Assembly: GCA_019637585.1 (NCBI GenBank)
Contig: JAHBVL010000002.1
Span: forward strand, 186,001-250,000
Direction: 5' to 3'
Source of the DNA: Thermomicrobiales bacterium
GTDB taxonomy: Bacteria; Chloroflexota; Chloroflexia; Thermomicrobiales; UBA6265
DNA length: 64,000 nucleotides
Part shown: piece by piece, positions 2,547 through 54,981 of the stretch
Layout of the letters: every line of letters starts with the position of its first letter
Position numbering within the stretch: the first letter of the stretch is position 1
The notes under the pieces: generated by a model
Seen by the model: only the letters and a program-made list of their open reading frames with translations
Told to the model about the DNA's origin: nothing
Databases searched by the model: none
Translations under genes and position numbers: made by a program

Positions 2547-2668
2547 TTCTGCTTATCCCTGTGCAGGCTCAGGTTCAAGCGGGCGCTCACCAGCTACGGA
2601 GTCGCGGGTTCGCTTGCGCCAGTGACCATTGCGATTGTTCAGGGGACTGCAGACCGCAAATCGCGGAG

Positions 2669-2817
2669 CCGGCACGTTGAGCGGCTTCTGTCAGACCGTT
2701 GCCGGTCTGGTTTGTACCTGCTCATCACGACTGTGCCTGCCGGGAAGCCATCCGCCGAATCGTTCGATCGGCTTCCACCTCGTCAACCTGTCGACCTCGA
2801 GACAGGTCCTGGCGCTA
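2669..2817 (-). ncRNA. glmS self-cleaving ribozyme in the glmS leader
   Basis: On the minus strand the leader holds the glmS ribozyme core. The cleavage dinucleotide would be A2816/G2815, followed by GCGCC. P1 is a 7-bp pairing ACCTGTC/GACAGGT. The conserved GTTGACGAGG segment follows; in studied ribozymes it carries the active-site guanosine. P2.1 is GGAAGCC/GGCTTCC closing a loop with ATCGA and TTCGGCGGATG. Downstream, CGGC/GTCG can form P3, its loop GGCAC can pair with GTGCC at 2675-2671 as the P3.1 pseudoknot, and CAGACCG-GCAA-CGGTCTG at 2709-2692 forms P4.1 behind a GGTACAAACC internal loop. Order and pairings match the known architecture. About 120 nt separate it from the glmS ATG. Confidence 0.93.
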
Positions 2818-2959
2818 CTGGAATTCCAAACGGCCCATGTGCCGGTCAGGCAATCCCGAACTGAGTGTACGTTCACAACGAGTAATTCACCAGCCGATCA
2901 GCCTATACTTCCGAGGACGTTCGTCCGGATTGTCATTCGCTTTTTCGGGAGAAACAGAC

Positions 2960-4300
2960 GTGATCGGCCGCTACACCAGGCCGGAGATGGGTCGGGTCTG
3001 GAGCGACGAGTCCAAGATCGACTGCTGGCTCCGCGTGGAGATCGCAGTTTGCCAGTCATGGCACAAACGGGATCGAATCCCGGACTGGGCGATCGAGCAA
3101 ATCCGAACCGCTTCCTGCGATCTCGAACGGATGCGCGAGATCGAGCGGGAAACCGACCACGACCTCATCTCTTTCCTTCGAGCAACCGGAGAATCGATCG
3201 GCGATGCCGCCAGATTTGTGCATCTCGGGCTGACCAGCTCCGATGTCGTCGATACCGGATTGGCCATGCAGGCGGTCGAAGCCTGCCGGATGATCGATGC
3301 CGAGCTCGCAGCGCTCACGGATGCCGTTTGGGCCCTGGCGCTCGCGCATAAGCACACCGTCACAATCGGCCGAACCCATGGCATCCACGCTGAACCGACG
3401 ACCTTTGGGCTGAAAGCGCTCGTCTGGTACGACGAGCTACGCCGGCACCGGCGCCGGCTCGCGCTGGCGCTGGAAGACATCGCAGTGGGTCAGATCTCGG
3501 GCGCTGTCGGCACCCACGCCCACGTGCCACCCGAAATCGAAGAAGAGGTCTGCGAAGCGCTCGGTCTGAAACCGGATCTGGCGTCGACCCAGGTCATTCA
3601 GCGCGACAGGCACGCGTTTTTGATCAGTGTTCTGGCCGGAATCGGCGCCACGATCGAAAAGATCGCGACGGAAATCCGCCACCTGCAGCGCACCGAAGTC
3701 CGGGAAGTGCAGGAGCCCTTCGGGCAGGGGAACCAGGGGTCCTCGGCGATGCCCCACAAGCGCAACCCGCACGAATCCGAACGACTGTCCGGTCTTGCCC
3801 GCCTTCTGCGCGGTTACATGGTCACGGCTTACGAGAACATCGCGCTCTGGCACGAACGGGACATCAGCCACAGCAGCACGGAACGGCTGATCTTTCCCGA
3901 TGCATTCATCCTGGTCGACTATTCCCTCCATCTGCTGACAGAGATCATCACCGATTTGAAGGTCTTCCCCGACCGGATGCGCTACAACCTCGAACTGACG
4001 GGCGGACTGATCTATTCGCAAAAGGTGCTTCTGGCGCTCGTCGACGCCGGCGTCGACCGGCAGGCCGCCTACAAAATCGTGCAGCGGAATGCGCTGGCCG
4101 CCTGGGACGATCCCACGATTGCGTTCGCCGACCGGCTCAAGGCGGATAGCGAGGTCACTGGCGCGATCGATAGCGCCGGTATCGACGCCCTGATGCGCGC
4201 GGAGGACCAGCTGATTCACGTCGATGGCTTGTTCGACCGGATCGTCGCCGATGTCAAAAGGGAATCTGGCGATGCCCAGCTGGCGAGCGTGGCACTGTGA
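2960..4300 (+). CDS. purB: Adenylosuccinate lyase
   Basis: Cleaves SAICAR and adenylosuccinate, releasing fumarate, in IMP and AMP synthesis. I place the start at GTG 2960, with GGGAGA at 2947-2952 as ribosome binding site and the typical N-terminus IGRYTRPEMGRVW; the upstream in-frame extension has no family resemblance. The product is 446 residues, normal for the short bacterial form. Seen motifs: HLGLTSSDVVDTG, IGRTHGIHAEPTTFG with the catalytic His, and the superfamily signature GSSAMPHKRNP near residue 265. It opens the pur operon and overlaps purC by 4 nt. A TATACT at 2904-2909 may be its -10 element, without a convincing -35. Confidence 0.97.
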   Translation: MIGRYTRPEMGRVWSDESKIDCWLRVEIAVCQSWHKRDRIPDWAIEQIRTASCDLERMREIERETDHDLISFLRATGESIGDAARFVHLGLTSSDVVDTGLAMQAVEACRMIDAELAALTDAVWALALAHKHTVTIGRTHGIHAEPTTFGLKALVWYDELRRHRRRLALALEDIAVGQISGAVGTHAHVPPEIEEEVCEALGLKPDLASTQVIQRDRHAFLISVLAGIGATIEKIATEIRHLQRTEVREVQEPFGQGNQGSSAMPHKRNPHESERLSGLARLLRGYMVTAYENIALWHERDISHSSTERLIFPDAFILVDYSLHLLTEIITDLKVFPDRMRYNLELTGGLIYSQKVLLALVDAGVDRQAAYKIVQRNALAAWDDPTIAFADRLKADSEVTGAIDSAGIDALMRAEDQLIHVDGLFDRIVADVKRESGDAQLASVAL

Positions 4301-5229
4301 TCGATCAGCAGGCGTTGACGCAGCTTTCCCTGCAGGGCTATCCCCGGTTCCACAGCGGCAAGGTTCGCGACACCTTCGATCTGGATGACCGATTGCTGAT
4401 CGTGGCGTCCGACCGTATCTCCGCATTCGACGTGATCATGCCCAACGGCATACCGGGCAAGGGCGCCGCACTGACGAAACTCTCGATCTTCTGGTTCGCT
4501 CAGACCAGCGGCATTGTGGCCAATCACTTCATCTCCGACGATCTGACGACGCTGCCCCAGCTTTCCGAGAGCGAACGCGCTGAGCTTGCGGGCCGGGCGA
4601 TGATCGTGCGGAAAGCGGAGCGGATCGATTTCGAGTGCGTTGTGCGCGGCTACATCTCCGGCTCAGCCTGGAAGGAATACCAATCCGAGGGATCGGTCGC
4701 GTTCGTGCCAATGCCCGGCGGATTGCGGGAGTCGGACCGTTTGGCGGAGCCGATCTTTACTCCGGCGGTAAAAAACGATCTCGGTCATGATGAGAACATC
4801 TCGGTGAGCGAGCTTCGCGACCGGATCGGCGCCGAGCAGACTGGCGAGCTGGAACGATTGAGCATCGCGCTCTACACATCGGCTGCGGCACATGCCGCTG
4901 AACGGGGCATCATCATCGCCGACACCAAATTCGAGTTCGGTTTTGCGGATGATGATTTGATCGTCATCGACGAGATGCTCACGCCGGACAGCTCCCGTTT
5001 CTGGGAGGCAGACGCCTGGGAACCAGGCGGACCGCAGGAGAGCTTCGACAAACAGTTCCTCAGGGATTGGCTCCTCGCGTCGGGCTGGGATCGGGAGCCA
5101 CCGGCTCCGGCGCTGCCCGAGGAGATCATTTCTGGAACCCGGCAACGCTATGAAGAAGCGGTGGCTCGCCTCACCGGACCTCCGGTTGCGCGCCACGTCG
5201 ATCGCTCTCGAGAAAGGGCAGGAGTCTGA
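4297..5229 (+). CDS. purC: Phosphoribosylaminoimidazole-succinocarboxamide synthase
   Basis: Joins aspartate to CAIR with ATP to give SAICAR in purine synthesis. The GTG start at 4297 overlaps the purB stop in a GTGA arrangement, so it is probably coupled to purB translation. The 310-residue length matches the yeast-like/long bacterial PurC group. Motifs: FHSGKVRDTFDLDD for the nucleotide loop, ASDRISAFDVIMPNGIPGKG, ECVVRGYISGSAWKEY, and DTKFEFGFADDDLIVIDE with acidic metal and substrate ligands. Its stop shares one base with the purS start. Confidence 0.97.
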   Translation: MIDQQALTQLSLQGYPRFHSGKVRDTFDLDDRLLIVASDRISAFDVIMPNGIPGKGAALTKLSIFWFAQTSGIVANHFISDDLTTLPQLSESERAELAGRAMIVRKAERIDFECVVRGYISGSAWKEYQSEGSVAFVPMPGGLRESDRLAEPIFTPAVKNDLGHDENISVSELRDRIGAEQTGELERLSIALYTSAAAHAAERGIIIADTKFEFGFADDDLIVIDEMLTPDSSRFWEADAWEPGGPQESFDKQFLRDWLLASGWDREPPAPALPEEIISGTRQRYEEAVARLTGPPVARHVDRSRERAGV

Positions 5230-5510
5230 TGTCGAACGCATGGGTGGCGGAAGTCGTCGTCATGCCCAAAGCGGGGGTCAACGACCCGCAGGGAGAAGCC
5301 ATCCTCGGTGGTCTTCATGACCTGGGGTACCGGGCGGTGAGCCGCGTTCGGGCCGGGAAGCAGTTCCGCGTCGAGATCGACGCCGAGAATGAAGCGGCAG
5401 CGAGGAACGCGATCGCCGAAATGAGTGACCGGGTCCTGGCCAATCCGGTGATCGAGGTCTACGAAATCGAGAGTCTCACACCGTTGACCGGAGCGGGAGC
5501 CGAGCGATGA
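5229..5510 (+). CDS. purS: Phosphoribosylformylglycinamidine synthase subunit PurS
   Basis: Small structural subunit that bridges PurL and PurQ in the three-protein FGAM synthase complex. The protein is 93 residues, slightly longer than the usual 80-85. Recognisable features are the N-terminal strand WVAEVVVMPKAGVNDPQGEA and the central region RAGKQFRVEIDAENEAAA. It starts one base inside the purC stop and overlaps purQ by 4 nt. This position between purC and purQ is characteristic of PurS. Confidence 0.95.
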   Translation: MSNAWVAEVVVMPKAGVNDPQGEAILGGLHDLGYRAVSRVRAGKQFRVEIDAENEAAARNAIAEMSDRVLANPVIEVYEIESLTPLTGAGAER

Positions 5511-6208
5511 GTCAGCAGGTCGGCGTCGTCACATTTCCCGGCAGCAATGGCGACCACGACGCCTGGAACGCGTTCGCCAACGACCTTGGCGTACCGACTC
5601 GCATGGTCGACTACCGCGAAACCGATCTCGATGGCATTGCAGTTGTGGTCGTGCCGGGCGGGTTTTCCTATGGCGACTATCTTCGCTGCGGCGCTATCGC
5701 CCGTTTTGCGCCAGTGATGAACGCGGTGCGCGAGTTCGCCCAGAGAGGCGGTCCCGTTCTCGGCATCTGCAACGGGTTCCAGGTGCTCACCGAGGCTCAT
5801 CTCCTGCCGGGAGCGTTGCTGCGCAACGAGTCGCTCCGCTTTCATTGCGACTGGATCCACGTCAAGGTGGAGAACAGGTCGTTCTGGACCTCCGACGTGG
5901 AGGTGGGCGACATCCTCCGGTTGCCGATCGCTCATGGCGACGGATCCTATTTCGCTGACGACGAAACGATCGCCAGACTCGAATCGAATGGCCAGGTCAT
6001 CTTTCGCTACTGCGATGCCAATGGCGCGGTTCTCGACAACGCCAACCCCAATGGGTCACGGCGGGCAATCGCCGGCATCGCTAACGAGGGGCGCAATGTG
6101 GTCGGTCTGATGCCGCATCCGGAACGAGCGACTGATCCGCTGGTCGGAGGCGCCGATGGCCGCAGGATCGTGACAGCCGCACTCAGTGCGCTGCAGGTGG
6201 CGGTGTAG
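5507..6208 (+). CDS. purQ: Phosphoribosylformylglycinamidine synthase subunit PurQ
   Basis: Class I glutamine amidotransferase subunit of FGAM synthase: hydrolyses glutamine and passes ammonia to PurL. It has 233 residues. [14 protein letters not shown] opens the protein, the nucleophilic Cys lies in [10 protein letters not shown] near residue 86, and the His/Glu pair of the triad is in [10 protein letters not shown] near residue 200. The ATG overlaps the purS stop by 4 nt. purL starts 2 nt after its stop, so the three subunits should be made in a coupled way. Confidence 0.97.
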
Positions 6209-6210
6209 CA

Positions 6211-8412
6211 ATGCCGGAAGCCGTGGTCAACTCGATTGCCCCGGGAGCATGGCGTGAAGTCGCCCTGAGCGACGACGAGTACGCCCTGATTCTCGAGTTG
6301 CTCGGTCGTGAGCCGACGCCCGTCGAGCTGGGTATGTTCGGCTCGATGTGGAGTGAGCATTGCGGGTACAAACACACCCGCCCGCTCTTTCCCCGTTTGC
6401 CGACCGACGGTCCGCAGGTTCTTCAGGGACCGGGCGAGAATGCCGGCGCGGTGAGCATCGGCAATGGTCTGGCCGTCGTCTTCAAGGTCGAGTCCCACAA
6501 TCATCCCAGCGCCGTCGAACCCTATGAGGGAGCCGCGACTGGCGTGGGCGGCATCGTGCGCGACATCTTCACCATGGGCGCCCGTCCCATTGCCCTGCTC
6601 AACTCCCTTCGGTTCGGCAAACTCGACGACCAGCGCAATCGCTATCTCTTCGACAACGTCGTTGGCGGAATCGGCGGATATGGCAACTGTCTCGGCATTC
6701 CCACCGTGGGGGGCGAAGTCTTCTTCGATGATTCCTATTCGGGCAACCCGCTGGTCAACGCGATGTGCATCGGTATCGTCACGGAGGATGGCATCGTCCG
6801 GGCCAAAGCGAGCGGCGTTGGCAACCTGATCATGCTCATCGGGGCCGATACCGGCAGGGACGGTCTGCACGGCGCGACATTCGCGTCGGTCGACGACCCG
6901 GAAGCCTCGCATCGGGGTGTGATCCAGGTAGGCAACCCCTTTCTCGAGAAACTCCTGCTGGAAGCGTCGCTCGAACTGCTCACCTCCGGAGCTGTCGTGG
7001 CGATGCAGGATCTCGGCGCTGCCGGTCTGACCAGCTCGACGATCGAATGCGCGAGCCGGGGTGGCGTGGGGGCGGAAATCGACGTCGCACTCGTCCCTCG
7101 CCGTGAAGAAGGAATGACGGCTTACGAGGTCATGCTGAGTGAGAGCCAGGAGCGAATGCTCCTGGTGGTCGAACCGCATGGTTTCGAACAGGTCGACGCC
7201 ATCGTGCGCAAGTGGTCGCTTCACTCGTCGGTGATCGGCAGGATCACGGACGACGGCATGGTCCGCGTCATGGATGGGGATGTCGTCACCGCTGACGTGC
7301 CGGCCGAGTTCTTCACCGACAAATGCCCCACCTATGTTCGCCCCGCTGCCGAGGCGCCTCACGTCGTTGCGGCCAGGGAGACCGACACCTCCGCCTTTTC
7401 CGACCTGAAACCGGGTCAGGCGCCGGCTGTGCTCCTCGAGCTCCTCTCCTCGCCGAACATCTGCAGCCGGAAACCGGTCTATGAACGCTACGACCATACG
7501 ATTCTGACCAACACGGTCGTGGCGCCGGGGCAAGCGGATGCGGCGGTGTTGCGTATCAAGGGTCAGCAGTCGGGAATCGCGACAGCGATCGATTGCAATT
7601 CCCGGTATTGCTATCTCGATCCGCACCTTGGGGCGATGCACGCGGTTGCCGAAGCCTGCCGCAATGTCTCCTGCACCGGGGGGCGTCCGCTGGCGATCAC
7701 CAACTGCCTCAACTTCGGCAATCCGGAGCGGCCAGCCGGTTACTTCCAGCTCGACAATGCGGTTCAGGGGATCGCCGACGCCTGCCGGGCGCTCGATGTA
7801 CCGGTGATCAGCGGCAATGTCAGTCTCTACAACGAAACCGCGAACTCTCCCGTTTTTCCCACGCCGACCATCGGCGCCGTCGGGTTGCTCGATGATGTCT
7901 GCCGCCACGCCACGATGGTCTGGAAGCCGGGCCAGTCGATCGTTCTCCTCGGAGCGTGGTCGCCAGTGCTGGGTGGCAGCGAGTTTCTCAGCTACTGGCA
8001 TGACGCCGTTGCCGGTCAGCCGCCATCCCTCGATCTGGAAGGAGAGCTGAGGGTGCAGGAGTTGGTCCGCGATCTGATTGGCGCTGGTGTCGTGCGGACC
8101 GCGCACGATGTCGCGCTCGGCGGTATTGCCGTGGCTCTGGCCAAGATGGCGATCGTGTCCGGTGTCGGGGCGAATGTCCAGCTGCCTCGCACGGTCGAGC
8201 GCGTCGACGCCCAGTGGTTCGGGGAAGCCGCGTCGGCCATCATCGTGGCTGTCGAAGCTGGAGATGAAGAGCGTGTGCGGGCAAACGCTGCCGAAGCGGG
8301 CGTTCCCTTCCTGCGACTGGGCGAAACCGGGGATTCGGGTCTGACGATCAACGGCGGCAAGGCGATCCCGCTCAGCGCGCTCTCTGTGGCACATGAACAT
8401 GGTTTCGCCTGA
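6211..8412 (+). CDS. purL: Phosphoribosylformylglycinamidine synthase subunit PurL (small type)
   Basis: Catalytic subunit of FGAM synthase: ATP-dependent conversion of FGAR to FGAM with ammonia from PurQ. The 733-residue size is the small PurL form that needs PurS and PurQ, both encoded just upstream. Motifs: [19 protein letters not shown] near residue 45, [39 protein letters not shown], and in the second AIRS-like half [11 protein letters not shown] and [13 protein letters not shown]. Large ORFs antisense to this gene are codon-bias shadows. Confidence 0.98.
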
Positions 8413-8457
8413 GTCTCTGAGTCAATGGGTTGTGCCGACCGTGTAAGATTGGAACTG

Positions 8458-9906
8458 ATGGATAGCGACGTTTTTTCTCTCGATTTCCAGGCGGATGACA
8501 AACCGCACGAAGAGTGCGGCGTCTTCGGAATCTACGCACCTGGGGAGGATGTCGCGCGCATCACCTTCTTCGGTCTCTACGCGCTTCAGCACCGGGGCCA
8601 GGAAAGCGCGGGAATCGCAACCTCCGACGGACAGCGGCTCTTCCGCCGCACCCATCTCGGACTCGTTTCGCAGGCATTCAACGAAGCGGACCTGAGCGCA
8701 TTGCCGGGTATCGCGGCGATTGGCCACACCCGCTATTCGACGACGGGACAGAGCAACGAGCGGAATGCCGGACCGATGCTAACTGTCGGCCCGCAAGGTC
8801 CGGTTGCCGTGGCCCACAATGGCAACATCGTCAACGCCTACGCGATCAAAGAGAATCTCGAAGCGGGCGGTGAGACCTTCGAAACATCAACCGACAGCGA
8901 GGTGCTGACCCGCCTGATCGCGCTCAGTCCGGGTTCGACCATGATCGAGAAGATCAGGGTGGCGATGCCGGCGCTGGTCGGCGCCTACAGCCTGGCGGTG
9001 CTGACGCCGGATGCGATCTACGCGGTCCGCGATCCGAAAGGGGTTCGGCCGCTCTGTATTGGCCGGCTGGGCGATCACTGGATCGTGGCCTCCGAGAGCT
9101 GTGCACTGACCACGGTTGGCGCCCAGTTCATCCGCGAAATCGAGCCGGGCGAGATCATCCAGATCGATATGGACGGGCTGCACTCGTTCCCCCCTGCCCA
9201 GAGCGATCGCCACGCCACCTGTCTCTTCGAGCTGATCTATTTCTCCCGGCCGGACAGCGTCATCCTCAATCAGCGCCTCTATCTGGTCCGTAAGCGAATG
9301 GGCGAGGTGCTGGCGCGCGAGCATCCGGTGGACGCTGATGTCGTCGTCGGATTGCCCGACTCGGCTACGCCGGCGGCCATCGGCTTTGCCCAGGCATCCG
9401 GGATCCCATATAGCGAGGGTTTGATCAAGAATCGCTATATCGGCCGCACCTTCATTCAACCCGATCAGCGGCTCCGGGAGGTCGGGGTATCGCTCAAGTT
9501 CAACGCGCTTCCGGAAGTTCTGGAAAACAAGCGAGTGGTGCTGGTCGATGACACGATCGTTCGGGGGACGACCAGCCGGCCGATCGTCCAGTTGTTGCGC
9601 AACGCCGGAGCGCGAGAGGTGCACATGCGCGTTCACGCGCCGCCGATGATGCACCCCTGCTACCTGGGGGTGGATCTGGCCCGGCGGGAGGAGTTGATCG
9701 CGGCGCGGATGACCGTCGAGGAAATCGGCGAGCATATCGGCGTCGACTCGATCGGCTATCTCTCGCTCGATGGATTGCTCGATGCCATCAACGCACCGGG
9801 CGCCGGATTCTGCACCGGCTGCCTCACCGGCAACTATCCCGTGCCGGTCCAGCTGGAAATGGACATGCACAAGCTGGTGCTGGAACGAGAACCGGTTGCC
9901 ACGTGA
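8458..9906 (+). CDS. purF: Amidophosphoribosyltransferase
   Basis: First committed step of purine synthesis: PRPP plus glutamine to phosphoribosylamine. I chose ATG 8458 (482 residues) because it leaves a short propeptide before the catalytic Cys of HEECGVFGIYA; ATG 8425 is an in-frame alternative, and neither has a strong ribosome site. The N-terminal Ntn amidotransferase domain shows YALQHRGQESAGIA and VAHNGNIVNAY. The PRTase domain shows VVGLPDSATPAAIGFA and VLVDDTIVRGTTSRPIV. Cysteines in HATCLFE, HPCYLG and CTGC fit the oxygen-sensitive [4Fe-4S] type known from Bacillus. Last gene of the pur operon, followed by a terminator. Confidence 0.97.
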   Translation: MDSDVFSLDFQADDKPHEECGVFGIYAPGEDVARITFFGLYALQHRGQESAGIATSDGQRLFRRTHLGLVSQAFNEADLSALPGIAAIGHTRYSTTGQSNERNAGPMLTVGPQGPVAVAHNGNIVNAYAIKENLEAGGETFETSTDSEVLTRLIALSPGSTMIEKIRVAMPALVGAYSLAVLTPDAIYAVRDPKGVRPLCIGRLGDHWIVASESCALTTVGAQFIREIEPGEIIQIDMDGLHSFPPAQSDRHATCLFELIYFSRPDSVILNQRLYLVRKRMGEVLAREHPVDADVVVGLPDSATPAAIGFAQASGIPYSEGLIKNRYIGRTFIQPDQRLREVGVSLKFNALPEVLENKRVVLVDDTIVRGTTSRPIVQLLRNAGAREVHMRVHAPPMMHPCYLGVDLARREELIAARMTVEEIGEHIGVDSIGYLSLDGLLDAINAPGAGFCTGCLTGNYPVPVQLEMDMHKLVLEREPVAT

Positions 9907-9930
9907 TCGGGCAATCAATCAGATAGCGGC

Positions 9931-9949
9931 GACCCGGAAGGTCCGGGTC
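9931..9949 (+). terminator. Intrinsic terminator after purF
   Basis: GACCCGGA (9931-9938), loop AGG, TCCGGGTC (9942-9949): a perfect 8-bp GC-rich stem, followed by TTTGTCTTGT. It lies 24 nt past the purF stop and 30 nt before the gcvT start, so it should separate the pur and gcv transcription units. Confidence 0.85.
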
Positions 9950-9979
9950 TTTGTCTTGTGAGATGTCAGGGAGCCAGGC

Positions 9980-11116
9980 ATGGGTGAAGGGGAGAACCAG
10001 GACGGGGTGAGGCAGACGCCTCTGTATGACCGCCACGTCGCGCTTGGGGCCAAGATGATCCCCTTCGCCGGTTGGATGATGCCGGTCCAGTACGCGGGCA
10101 TCATCGCCGAGCACCGTACCGTGCGCACCGAGGCCGGACTCTTCGATCTCGGGCACATGGGGCAGGTATCGGTGACCGGTCCCGACGCATTGCCATTCCT
10201 CCAGTATGTGGCTACGAATGATGTGTCAAAACTCGAACCGGGCGCCGCGCAGTACGCCATGCTGACCAACGAGCAGGGTGGTGTGGTCGACGACATCATC
10301 ATCTATCGCGAACCCTCGTCGGACGGCTACATGGTCGTCGTCAATGCCTCGAACAAGGACAAGGACGTCGCCTGGATGCAGGAGTGGGCCGCCAGGCGGA
10401 ACGATCTCCAGGTGAGCGTCGAGGACATCAGCGACCGCCTCGGCATGGTGGCCATCCAGGGTCCGAAGTCGGACGACATTCTGGCCACACTCACCAGTGC
10501 AGATCTGGCCGGCCTGCCTGGGTTCCATTTGCTGGAAACCGAGGTGGCTGGGATCCCGGTCAAGCTGGCCCGCACCGGCTACACCGGTGAGGATGGTTTC
10601 GAGATCTATCCGGCCATCGAACGAAGTGGCGAGCTCTGGGATGCGTTGATGGCAGCGGGTGCCGGTGCAGGGTTGCAGCCGATCGGACTTGGCGCTCGCG
10701 ACACCCTGCGGCTCGAAGCCCGCATGCCGCTCTATGGCAACGAGCTGGGCGACGACATTTCCCCGCTCGAGGCCGGATTGGGTTGGGCGGTGGCGCTGGA
10801 CAAGGGCGAATTCATCGGCTCTGGTCCGATCGTTGCACAGAAAGCGGCGGGCGTGCCGCGCAAGACGGTCGGCTTCCGCATGACCGAACGGTCCGGTGCA
10901 CCGCGGTCTCATTGTCCGGTGCAGGTCGATGGCGTCGAGGTCGGATTTGTGACCAGCGGCGCGATGTCTCCCACCCTGGGAGAAAATATCGGCCTGGCTC
11001 TAGTAGAATCTTCCGCCGCGGGAGTGGGGAAACCACTCGAGATCGTCATTCGCGACAAGCCGTACAAGGCGGAACAGATCAAGCTGCCCTTTTACCGGCG
11101 ATCAGAGGCCAGATAG
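9980..11116 (+). CDS. gcvT: Glycine cleavage system aminomethyltransferase (T-protein)
   Basis: Transfers the methylene group from aminomethyl-lipoyl GcvH to tetrahydrofolate, releasing ammonia. ATG 9980 has AGGGAG at 9968-9973. The 378 residues contain the family features: [20 protein letters not shown] at the N-terminus, [34 protein letters not shown] and [20 protein letters not shown]. The C-terminal barrel ends [15 protein letters not shown]. First of the gcvT-gcvH-gcvPA cluster; gcvH follows after 28 nt. No glycine riboswitch is visible in the short upstream gap. Confidence 0.97.
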
Positions 11117-11144
11117 CTGGAAGAATCGAAAGGACGAGACAACA

Positions 11145-11531
11145 ATGGCTGTACCAGCCGATCTGAAATTCACCAAGTCCCACGAATGGGTGCGCGTCGA
11201 CGGTGACACGGCAACCGTGGGGCTGGCCGATTTCGCCCAGTCGGAGCTTGGGGATATCACCTACCTGGAACTGCCCGAAGTAGGGGACTCGATCACGGCC
11301 AAAGACCCTCTGGGAGTTGTCGAGTCGGTCAAAGCCGCATCGGATATCTACGCGCCGGTTTCGGGCGAAGTGGTCGAGCGCAACGAAGCAGCCATCGACA
11401 AACCAGAGCTCGTCAACCAGGACCCGTTCGGCGATGCCTGGCTGATCAAAGTCCGGCTCAGCGACACGGCTCAGCTGGACGATCTGCTCGACACCGACGC
11501 CTACAACGCGCTGCTGGATTCCAACGCCTGA
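11145..11531 (+). CDS. gcvH: Glycine cleavage system H protein
   Basis: Lipoyl carrier that shuttles the aminomethyl group between the P, T and L proteins. The 128-residue size is typical. [20 protein letters not shown] is the N-terminal signature, and the lipoylated Lys lies in [19 protein letters not shown] near residue 64. It sits between gcvT and gcvPA with short gaps (28 and 32 nt), so it is very likely cotranscribed with them. Confidence 0.98.
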
Positions 11532-11563
11532 CACGACAGGACCGCTGGAGGGTCCGCGCTCAC

Positions 11564-12913
11564 ATGACATTCAATCCGCACACGGACGCAGAACGCAAAG
11601 CGATGCTGGAGACGATCGGCGTCTCGGGTGTTGCAGAACTGATCGAAGCGATTCCTGAGTCGATTCGCTTTCCCACGCTCGACCTGCCCCCCAGGCTGAC
11701 CGAGCTGGAAGCCGAGCTGCACATGGCGTCGCTGGCGGCGAAGAACGACATCGTCGCCGCGAACCAGAACTTCCTGGGCGCCGGTTCGTACCGCCACTAC
11801 AGCCCGGCGACGGTCGGCCAGCTGTTGCTGCGCGGCGAGATCTTCACCGCCTATACGCCATATCAGCCGGAGGTTTCCCAGGGCACTCTGCAGATCATCT
11901 ATGAGTTTCAGTCGCTGGTGGCCGAGCTCATGCAGATGGAGATCGCCAACGCCTCGATGTACGACGGTGCGACCGCGCTTGCCGAAGCGGCGTTGATGGC
12001 GCGTTCGGCGGCCAAGGGACGCAAGCGGGTGGTCGTTTCGGGCACGGTGCATCCGAACTACCGTGAGGTGATGGCCACCTACTGCTCGGGCGTTGATATC
12101 GACCTCGATTTCCTGCCGGTTGCGACATCGGGGTTCGCCACGACATCACCGGATATCGCGGCGGCAATCGACGACCAGACAGCAGCGGTCATCGTGCAGT
12201 ACCCCAACTTCTTCGGCACGATCGAGGATCTGGCAGCGATTTCGCATGTTGTTCACGAGCATGGCGCTGCGCTCGTCGTCGCCACGTATCCGATTCCTCT
12301 GGCATTGCTGAAGCCGCCCGGTGCGTTTGGGGCCGATATTGCCACTGCGGAGGGACAGTCCCTCGGCGTCGCGCAAAGTTATGGCGGTCCCTATGTCGGT
12401 CTTCTGGCGGCGAAACAGAGCTATGTCCGCCTGATGCCCGGCCGCCTGGCCGGCATGACCACCGACAGCGAAGGCAAGCGCGGCTATGTGTTGACGCTGC
12501 AAACGCGGGAACAGCACATCAGGCGTGAAAAAGCGACCAGCAACATCTGCACCAATCAGGGGTTGATGGCTACGGCGGCCACGATCTACATGTCGCTGCT
12601 GGGAACCGAGGGGCTCCGCGAAGTCAGCCGGAGGTCCCATGCCAACGCTCATTATCTGGCCGATGGGCTCGGCCAGTTGAGCGGCGTGTCGGTTGCCAAT
12701 GCCGGGGAGTTCTTCAACGAGTTCGTCGTCGAGCTGCCAATAGCCGCCGATCGCGCCAATAGCGCCCTTGCGGAGGCGGGTTTCCAGGGAGGACTCAGCC
12801 TGTCATATGCGGATGAGTCGCTGGGAAATCACATGCTTCTGGCGACGACCGAAATGAACGACCGCGACGGTATCGATCGTTTCGTGCAGACAGTTGGGAA
12901 GATAATTCGGTAA
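11564..12913 (+). CDS. gcvPA: Glycine dehydrogenase (decarboxylating) subunit 1
   Basis: N-terminal half of the two-subunit glycine decarboxylase (P protein), which needs GcvPB, the subunit carrying the PLP-binding Lys. 449 residues is normal for GcvPA. Signatures: FLGAGSYRHYSPATVGQLL, FYTAYTPYQPEVSQGTLQ-like motif (here ending TAYTPYQPEVSQGTL), QMEIANASMYDGATALAEA and TSNICTNQGLMA. Unusually, no gcvPB follows: the next gene downstream is der, after a gap with a hairpin. The partner must be encoded outside the window. Confidence 0.96.
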   Translation: MTFNPHTDAERKAMLETIGVSGVAELIEAIPESIRFPTLDLPPRLTELEAELHMASLAAKNDIVAANQNFLGAGSYRHYSPATVGQLLLRGEIFTAYTPYQPEVSQGTLQIIYEFQSLVAELMQMEIANASMYDGATALAEAALMARSAAKGRKRVVVSGTVHPNYREVMATYCSGVDIDLDFLPVATSGFATTSPDIAAAIDDQTAAVIVQYPNFFGTIEDLAAISHVVHEHGAALVVATYPIPLALLKPPGAFGADIATAEGQSLGVAQSYGGPYVGLLAAKQSYVRLMPGRLAGMTTDSEGKRGYVLTLQTREQHIRREKATSNICTNQGLMATAATIYMSLLGTEGLREVSRRSHANAHYLADGLGQLSGVSVANAGEFFNEFVVELPIAADRANSALAEAGFQGGLSLSYADESLGNHMLLATTEMNDRDGIDRFVQTVGKIIR

Positions 12914-54579: not shown

Positions 54580-54981
54580 GGGATGGGGGCTCCAGAGGGA
54601 TAGGGTTGTTCATAGTTCATAGTTCATAGTTCATAGTTCATGGTTGATAGTTGATGGTTCAGAGTGAGCGCGTTCGGCTTTGACTGATTCATCGTGAGGC
54701 CCGTCTACCATTTCCCATTTCCCATCCCCTATTTCCCAAACACCACCCACCATTGCCATTTGCCCTTTGCCTTCATCCCCGTCTCCTCGCTGATGGTACC
54801 CTGAACGCTGCCGGCCCTGCGGTGTGCGTGATTGCTGGCGTGGTTCTGAGCCTTATAAGAACGAGTCGGGAGCTGGTTTCCGCAGTACGGATGCCGGCGC
54901 CCACCTGCTATGGCAGGTTCAGGCTCCGCCACACACGGCTCTCGCGGGGACGGCATCCCACCGTCGATTCAGGAGCGGCAG
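54580..54981. repeat. fabF-holA divergent gap with a 7-bp microsatellite
   Basis: Seven tandem CATAGTT-type heptamers at 54611-54659 (four perfect, three changed). A pyrimidine-rich stretch with repeated CATTTCCC-like words at 54711-54770 comes next, then the holA promoter. I see no gene in these 402 bp. Confidence 0.75.
54832..54859 (+). promoter_or_regulatory. holA promoter candidate
   Basis: TTGCTG (54832-54837), 16-nt spacer, TATAAG (54854-54859), about 120 nt before the holA start. Confidence 0.5.

Follow-up and report, generated by a model that had tools for sequence, protein, structure and literature searches.

The minus strand of the window (the whole stretch of 64,000 nucleotides analysed here) carries at positions 2669-2827 what is, judged from its sequence and predicted fold, a complete and ordinary glmS ribozyme. 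This ribozyme is standard equipment in the order Thermomicrobiales and no rare outlier. A structural variant of it, found in the Chloroflexota families f51 and f18, probably controls genes other than glmS.

Identification and genomic context of the ribozyme

As determined by cmscan, family RF00234 matched the window over its full length (model positions 1-167, window 2827-2669) with 79.8 bits, against a gathering cut-off of 37. The E-value was 1e-16 over the 64 kb and all Rfam families. The initial annotation had read a complete glmS ribozyme from the letters and proposed an Infernal search with RF00234, and the significant match and intact core bases bear it out. The coordinates given there hold, and the cleavage position, between 2816 and 2815, is consistent with the A(-1)/G1 site predicted from the RF00234 alignment. 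In a search of the whole genome (3.94 Mb), the window copy was the only match (E 1.5e-18). The ribozyme strand is predicted to fold stably (z = -3.06).

The 3' end of the ribozyme and the ATG of glmS are separated by 122 nt on the same strand (Table 1). The open reading frame was identified as glmS by TIGR01135 with 568 bits (cut-off 418). It is the sole full GlmS of the genome, the other SIS-domain proteins being 304-393 aa long. Promoter and terminator scans near the ribozyme found none, a result of little weight in a GC-rich genome with uncertain promoter types. Two proteins of the RNase J family are encoded in the genome (534.7 and 514.3 bits, cut-off 400).

Upstream of the ribozyme, purB opens a run of genes on the plus strand (window 2960-12913), followed by open reading frames reading as purC, purS, purQ, purL and purF. 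The purine run is directly continued by genes resembling gcvT, gcvH and gcvPA of glycine cleavage; purB is the one gene of this run that was checked against a library. A 6S RNA (RF00013) lies at window 54811-54954 (+) with 57.6 bits (cut-off 46.4).

Table 1. Coordinates of the ribozyme, its parts and neighbouring genes in the window, and of variant loci in other genomes. Compensatory changes and paired cells refer to the alignment of 39 Thermomicrobiales sequences.
Feature	Coordinates	Strand	Details
glmS ribozyme, whole RF00234 match	2669-2827	-	2827-2817, 5' leader ahead of the cleavage site
Predicted self-cleavage site, A2816/G2815 (A-1/G1)	2815-2816	-	RF00234 alignment
P1, 8 pairs	2785-2808	-	2808-2801 with 2792-2785; compensatory changes in 7/8 pairs; 96.5% of cells paired
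P2.2 pseudoknot, 4 pairs	2753-2814	-	CGCC 2814-2811 with GGCG 2756-2753; invariant in 39 sequences
GACGAGG core strand	2778-2784	-	invariant alignment columns
P2, 7 pairs	2743-2776	-	2776-2770 with 2749-2743; compensatory changes in 6/7 pairs; 99.6% of cells paired
P3, 4 pairs	2728-2742	-	2742-2739 with 2731-2728; 100% of cells paired
P3.1 pseudoknot, 5 pairs	2671-2737	-	P3 loop GGCAC 2737-2733 with GUGCC 2675-2671
P4, 5 pairs	2678-2724	-	2724-2720 with 2682-2678; compensatory changes in 5/5 pairs
P4.1, 7 pairs	2692-2709	-	GCAA tetraloop 2702-2699; compensatory changes in 7/7 pairs
AGGGA, Shine-Dalgarno-like	2556-2560	-	about 9 nt ahead of the glmS start; read from the sequence
glmS, glutamine--fructose-6-phosphate transaminase (isomerizing), 589 aa	777-2546	-	TIGR01135
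purB, divergent neighbour	2960-4300	+	outside ribozyme control; TIGR00928, 487 bits, cut-off 326
Variant ahead of glnA (f51)	L120:1501-1718, L122:1501-1720, L124:4718-4501, L127:1501-1704, L119:395-602, L128-L132, others		
Variant ahead of AraC/MGMT-EamA cluster (f18)	L162-L168, L170, L172, L175, L177, L178		

Structure and covariation

All eight helices of the window copy consist of standard pairs. P1, P2 and P2.2 form the double-pseudoknot core, in which covariation backs P1 and P2. Inside P2 lie AUCGA (2768-2764) and UUCGGCGGAUG, together with a short inner P2.1 (2765-2763/2759-2757). The P3/P3.1 pseudoknot and P4/P4.1 with its GNRA loop are present as well. The pairing of the P3 loop GGCAC with GTGCC and the GCAA-capped P4.1 had been recognized in the initial annotation, and both were recovered here. 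The P1 that it described is also present, but has eight pairs with a terminal G-U, not seven. Its seven-pair "P2.1" likewise exists and is the helix that we name P2, the difference being a matter of naming. The last G of GACGAGG, G2778, is presumably the active-site guanine, equivalent to G40 of B. anthracis and G33 of T. tengcongensis.

Covariation was scored on the named structure, including pseudoknots, in an alignment of the window copy and 38 copies from the same order (39 Thermomicrobiales sequences). Across this alignment 95.6% of cells pair, and compensatory changes on both sides were found in 29 of 43 pairs. The covariation score was 0.433 against 0.171 in shuffles, with 0 of 500 shuffles as high, and it fell to 0.04-0.11 when partners were slid by 1-3 columns. 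In P3.1, compensatory changes occurred in three of the five pairs, with 81.5% of cells paired. The columns A/GCGCC (the slash marking the cleavage site), GACGAGG, CGA and TCGGCGG are invariant in all 39 copies. Since P2.2 is invariant, covariation speaks neither for nor against it; its support comes from the RF00234 model and from crystal structures of glmS ribozymes.

It might be argued that the window copy is a decayed or inactive relic that no longer cleaves, as its 79.8 bits are below the scores of several genomes of the same order (up to 107.9) and a few P4 bases close to the internal loop deviate from the consensus. However, 68-92 bits is the normal range in the window's own family, the invariant core positions are all intact and every helix retains standard pairs, so that we regard a relic as very unlikely. 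Chance resemblance can be dismissed, given the E-value of 1e-16 against all Rfam families and a covariation score far above those of the shuffled and slid controls.

Proposed action of the window copy

The window copy is almost certainly a standard riboswitch-ribozyme of the glmS class that lies in the 5' UTR of its gene and turns glmS down at high glucosamine-6-phosphate (GlcN6P). At high levels GlcN6P, the product of GlmS, would bind the preformed double-pseudoknot core and act as the cofactor with which the RNA cuts itself between A2816 and G2815. This would leave the downstream mRNA with a 5' hydroxyl and open to degradation from its 5' end, for which RNase J is the most likely enzyme, and glmS expression would drop. 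In B. subtilis, where GlcN6P is the cofactor of cleavage, RNase J1 degrades the 5'-OH product (PMC3997798). For the window copy we infer that the leader is transcribed, that it is cleaved in vivo in dependence on GlcN6P, and that RNase J then degrades the mRNA.

Distribution and descent

RF00234 matches were found in 54 of the 61 genomes of the family and order, including all 28 near-complete ones. The ribozyme was present in at least 86 of 131 genomes of the class and at least 128 of 400 of the phylum; these two counts are lower bounds because rescans of negative glmS loci with permissive filters recovered diverged copies in L111 (34.7 bits) and L118 (33.8 bits). Chloroflexota glmS ribozymes with large insertions were seen at L111:1089-1428, L117:3746-3493 and L118:1135-1384. 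These insertion-rich copies are 250-340 nt long in all and score near or below the Rfam threshold. Ten named relatives were checked, and in each of them (10/10) the ribozyme lies directly upstream of glmS.

The Chloroflexota host suggested in the initial annotation holds in the sense of GTDB, where Thermomicrobiales belong to that phylum, while NCBI places them in a phylum of their own, Thermomicrobiota; by GlmS, the closest named relatives of the window are Thermomicrobiales. A GlmS tree of 84 rows was built by a quick method and included partial proteins, two Clostridia and no ribozyme-bearing Bacillota. In this tree the window GlmS belongs to a set (support 99) of 24 Thermomicrobiales proteins whose genomes all have the ribozyme. 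Two long-branch members of the order, L025 and L027, lie outside this set. Chloroflexota GlmS form two deeply separated lineages, a shorter divergent one, to which the window protein belongs, and a longer one, and the ribozyme accompanies both. The GlmS of a Levyibacteriota genome (L076), which is without ribozyme, was placed inside the shorter lineage.

The distribution and the tree fit a long vertical presence of the ribozyme within the order. The initial annotation had spoken of scattered cases outside Firmicutes and of sparsely sampled lineages as useful for tracing transfer or vertical descent. The near-universal occurrence in the order is at odds with such a scattered case, and with the window GlmS nested among ribozyme-bearing Thermomicrobiales the copy says little about transfer into this genome. 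An older transfer into an ancestor of the phylum may have occurred, the tree being one without ribozyme-bearing Bacillota. A recent acquisition from Firmicutes, of the ribozyme alone or together with glmS, might be considered, as glmS ribozymes are best known from that group. This is hardly credible for a ribozyme near-universal in the order, with the window GlmS nested firmly among Thermomicrobiales and in a different main clade from both Clostridia of a tree without ribozyme-bearing Bacillota. A text search found no paper on a glmS ribozyme in Chloroflexota or Thermomicrobiales, which is not proof of novelty; older papers in which the glmS ribozyme and Chloroflexi both appear are silent on this occurrence.

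A variant ribozyme upstream of glnA and other genes

In the phylum survey, some genomes of family f51 had two RF00234 matches, one ahead of glmS and the other ahead of glnA, the glutamine synthetase gene (Pfam Gln-synt_C, 416 bits). A search of the whole family gave RF00234 matches in 88 of 121 genomes, and the best 30 loci comprised 18 ahead of glnA and 12 ahead of glmS. Most genomes with the glnA-linked copy have a second, ordinary copy ahead of glmS. Among the 53 variant loci examined, glnA was downstream at 47 (18 best loci, 19 further genomes and 10 more). Six loci remain. Three of them, L205-L207, are additional copies in genus g294 at which glnA was not found, and the core is altered in L207 and its neighbours. 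L209 is without glnA in the stretch covered, L212 stops at a contig edge, and the sixth, L215, is a degenerate-looking copy.

Both the conserved GCGCC strand of P2.2 and the linkage to glmS are absent from the glnA-linked copies, and for want of the GCGCC strand we file them as a variant and not as plain members of RF00234. In the variant core A/GCGCC is replaced by A/GCG-R-CUG, with GATCAGCGG opposite, so that in P2.2 CG and CUG would pair with CG and CAG and one purine would be bulged. GCG-R-CUG and CAGCG are complementary in 20 of 20 aligned copies. The variant also has two extra hairpins, placed between the P2 strand and AAAATCGA, and a helix formed by the leader ahead of the cleavage site with a segment that follows P3. 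This leader helix (alignment A2, columns 4-10 with 167-173) shows compensatory changes in five of its seven pairs among the 20 copies, and through it the 5' product could remain attached once the RNA is cut. Over the whole structure, 90.9% of cells pair in the 20 copies, changes on both sides were found in 41 of 61 pairs and 0 of 500 shuffles reached the covariation score. The leader helix is also visible by eye in the glmS-linked copies L133, L134 and L139, and some glmS-linked copies of f51 are seemingly without P4.

The RF00234 scores of glnA-linked loci were 47.7, 46.6 and 42.9 bits, above the cut-off of 37, and 35.0 and 34.9 bits, just below it; they are lowered because of the extra stems. 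We built a covariance model, R1, from the 20 variant copies, which score high by construction; the scores of the others are independent. R1 separated the two kinds of f51 loci, with 77 loci in 74 genomes at 118-225 bits and the rest at 93 bits or less. L215 scored 72.8 bits with R1 and is outside the 77. Downstream of glmS in genome G415, a T-box-like leader (RF00230) at L119:5155-5373 (+) reached 68.8 bits, with a threshold of 93.

In family f18, the variant was found 24-800 nt upstream of an open reading frame with AraC-HTH and O6-methylguanine methyltransferase (MGMT) domains, followed by an EamA permease (Table 1). In the f18 genome L161 it precedes glnA.

Discussion

Compared with the RF00234 type of B. 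subtilis, with P3.1, P4 and P4.1 (Winkler et al. 2004), the window copy shares the cleavage-site motif, the core and the double pseudoknot. It further shares the P3.1 pseudoknot, the GNRA-capped P4.1 and the place upstream of glmS, and differs only in host lineage and a short P1 loop, with no structural difference. The 2011 paper by McCown, Roth and Breaker reportedly described Deinococcus-Thermus glmS ribozymes with additional core stems, and 2 of 463 glmS ribozymes outside glmS mRNAs. The window copy is likewise a non-Firmicutes member of the same class, but unlike the Deinococcus-Thermus copies it has no extra core stems, whereas such stems are present in the glnA-linked copies and in many others from Chloroflexota. 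A control genome, Deinobacterium chartae, was positive for RF00234. A text search of the literature for glmS ribozyme together with glutamine synthetase or glnA found no report of a link to glnA, an absence that does not prove novelty.

Retained in the variant are the positions equivalent to the active-site guanine, to the contact strand AUCGA and to the last G of GCGG. As these positions are kept, GlcN6P appears to be its likeliest ligand. GlcN6P is one of several end products that inhibit enterobacterial glutamine synthetase (PMC6316151), so that control of glnA by the ribozyme would make sense. We consider it likely that Chloroflexota possess a variant defined by the bulged P2.2, two extra core hairpins and the leader helix, which in f51 stands ahead of glnA and so would set glutamine synthetase levels, a counterpart at the mRNA level of inhibition by GlcN6P, and in f18 stands ahead of the AraC/MGMT-EamA cluster.

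The window copy itself is one more well-behaved member of its class and shows the ribozyme to be ordinary in Thermomicrobiales, not scattered as it had seemed. If the reading of the variant is true, a catalytic riboswitch would have been recruited to control nitrogen assimilation, and the ligand specificity of a glmS-type ribozyme would become askable in a natural variant.
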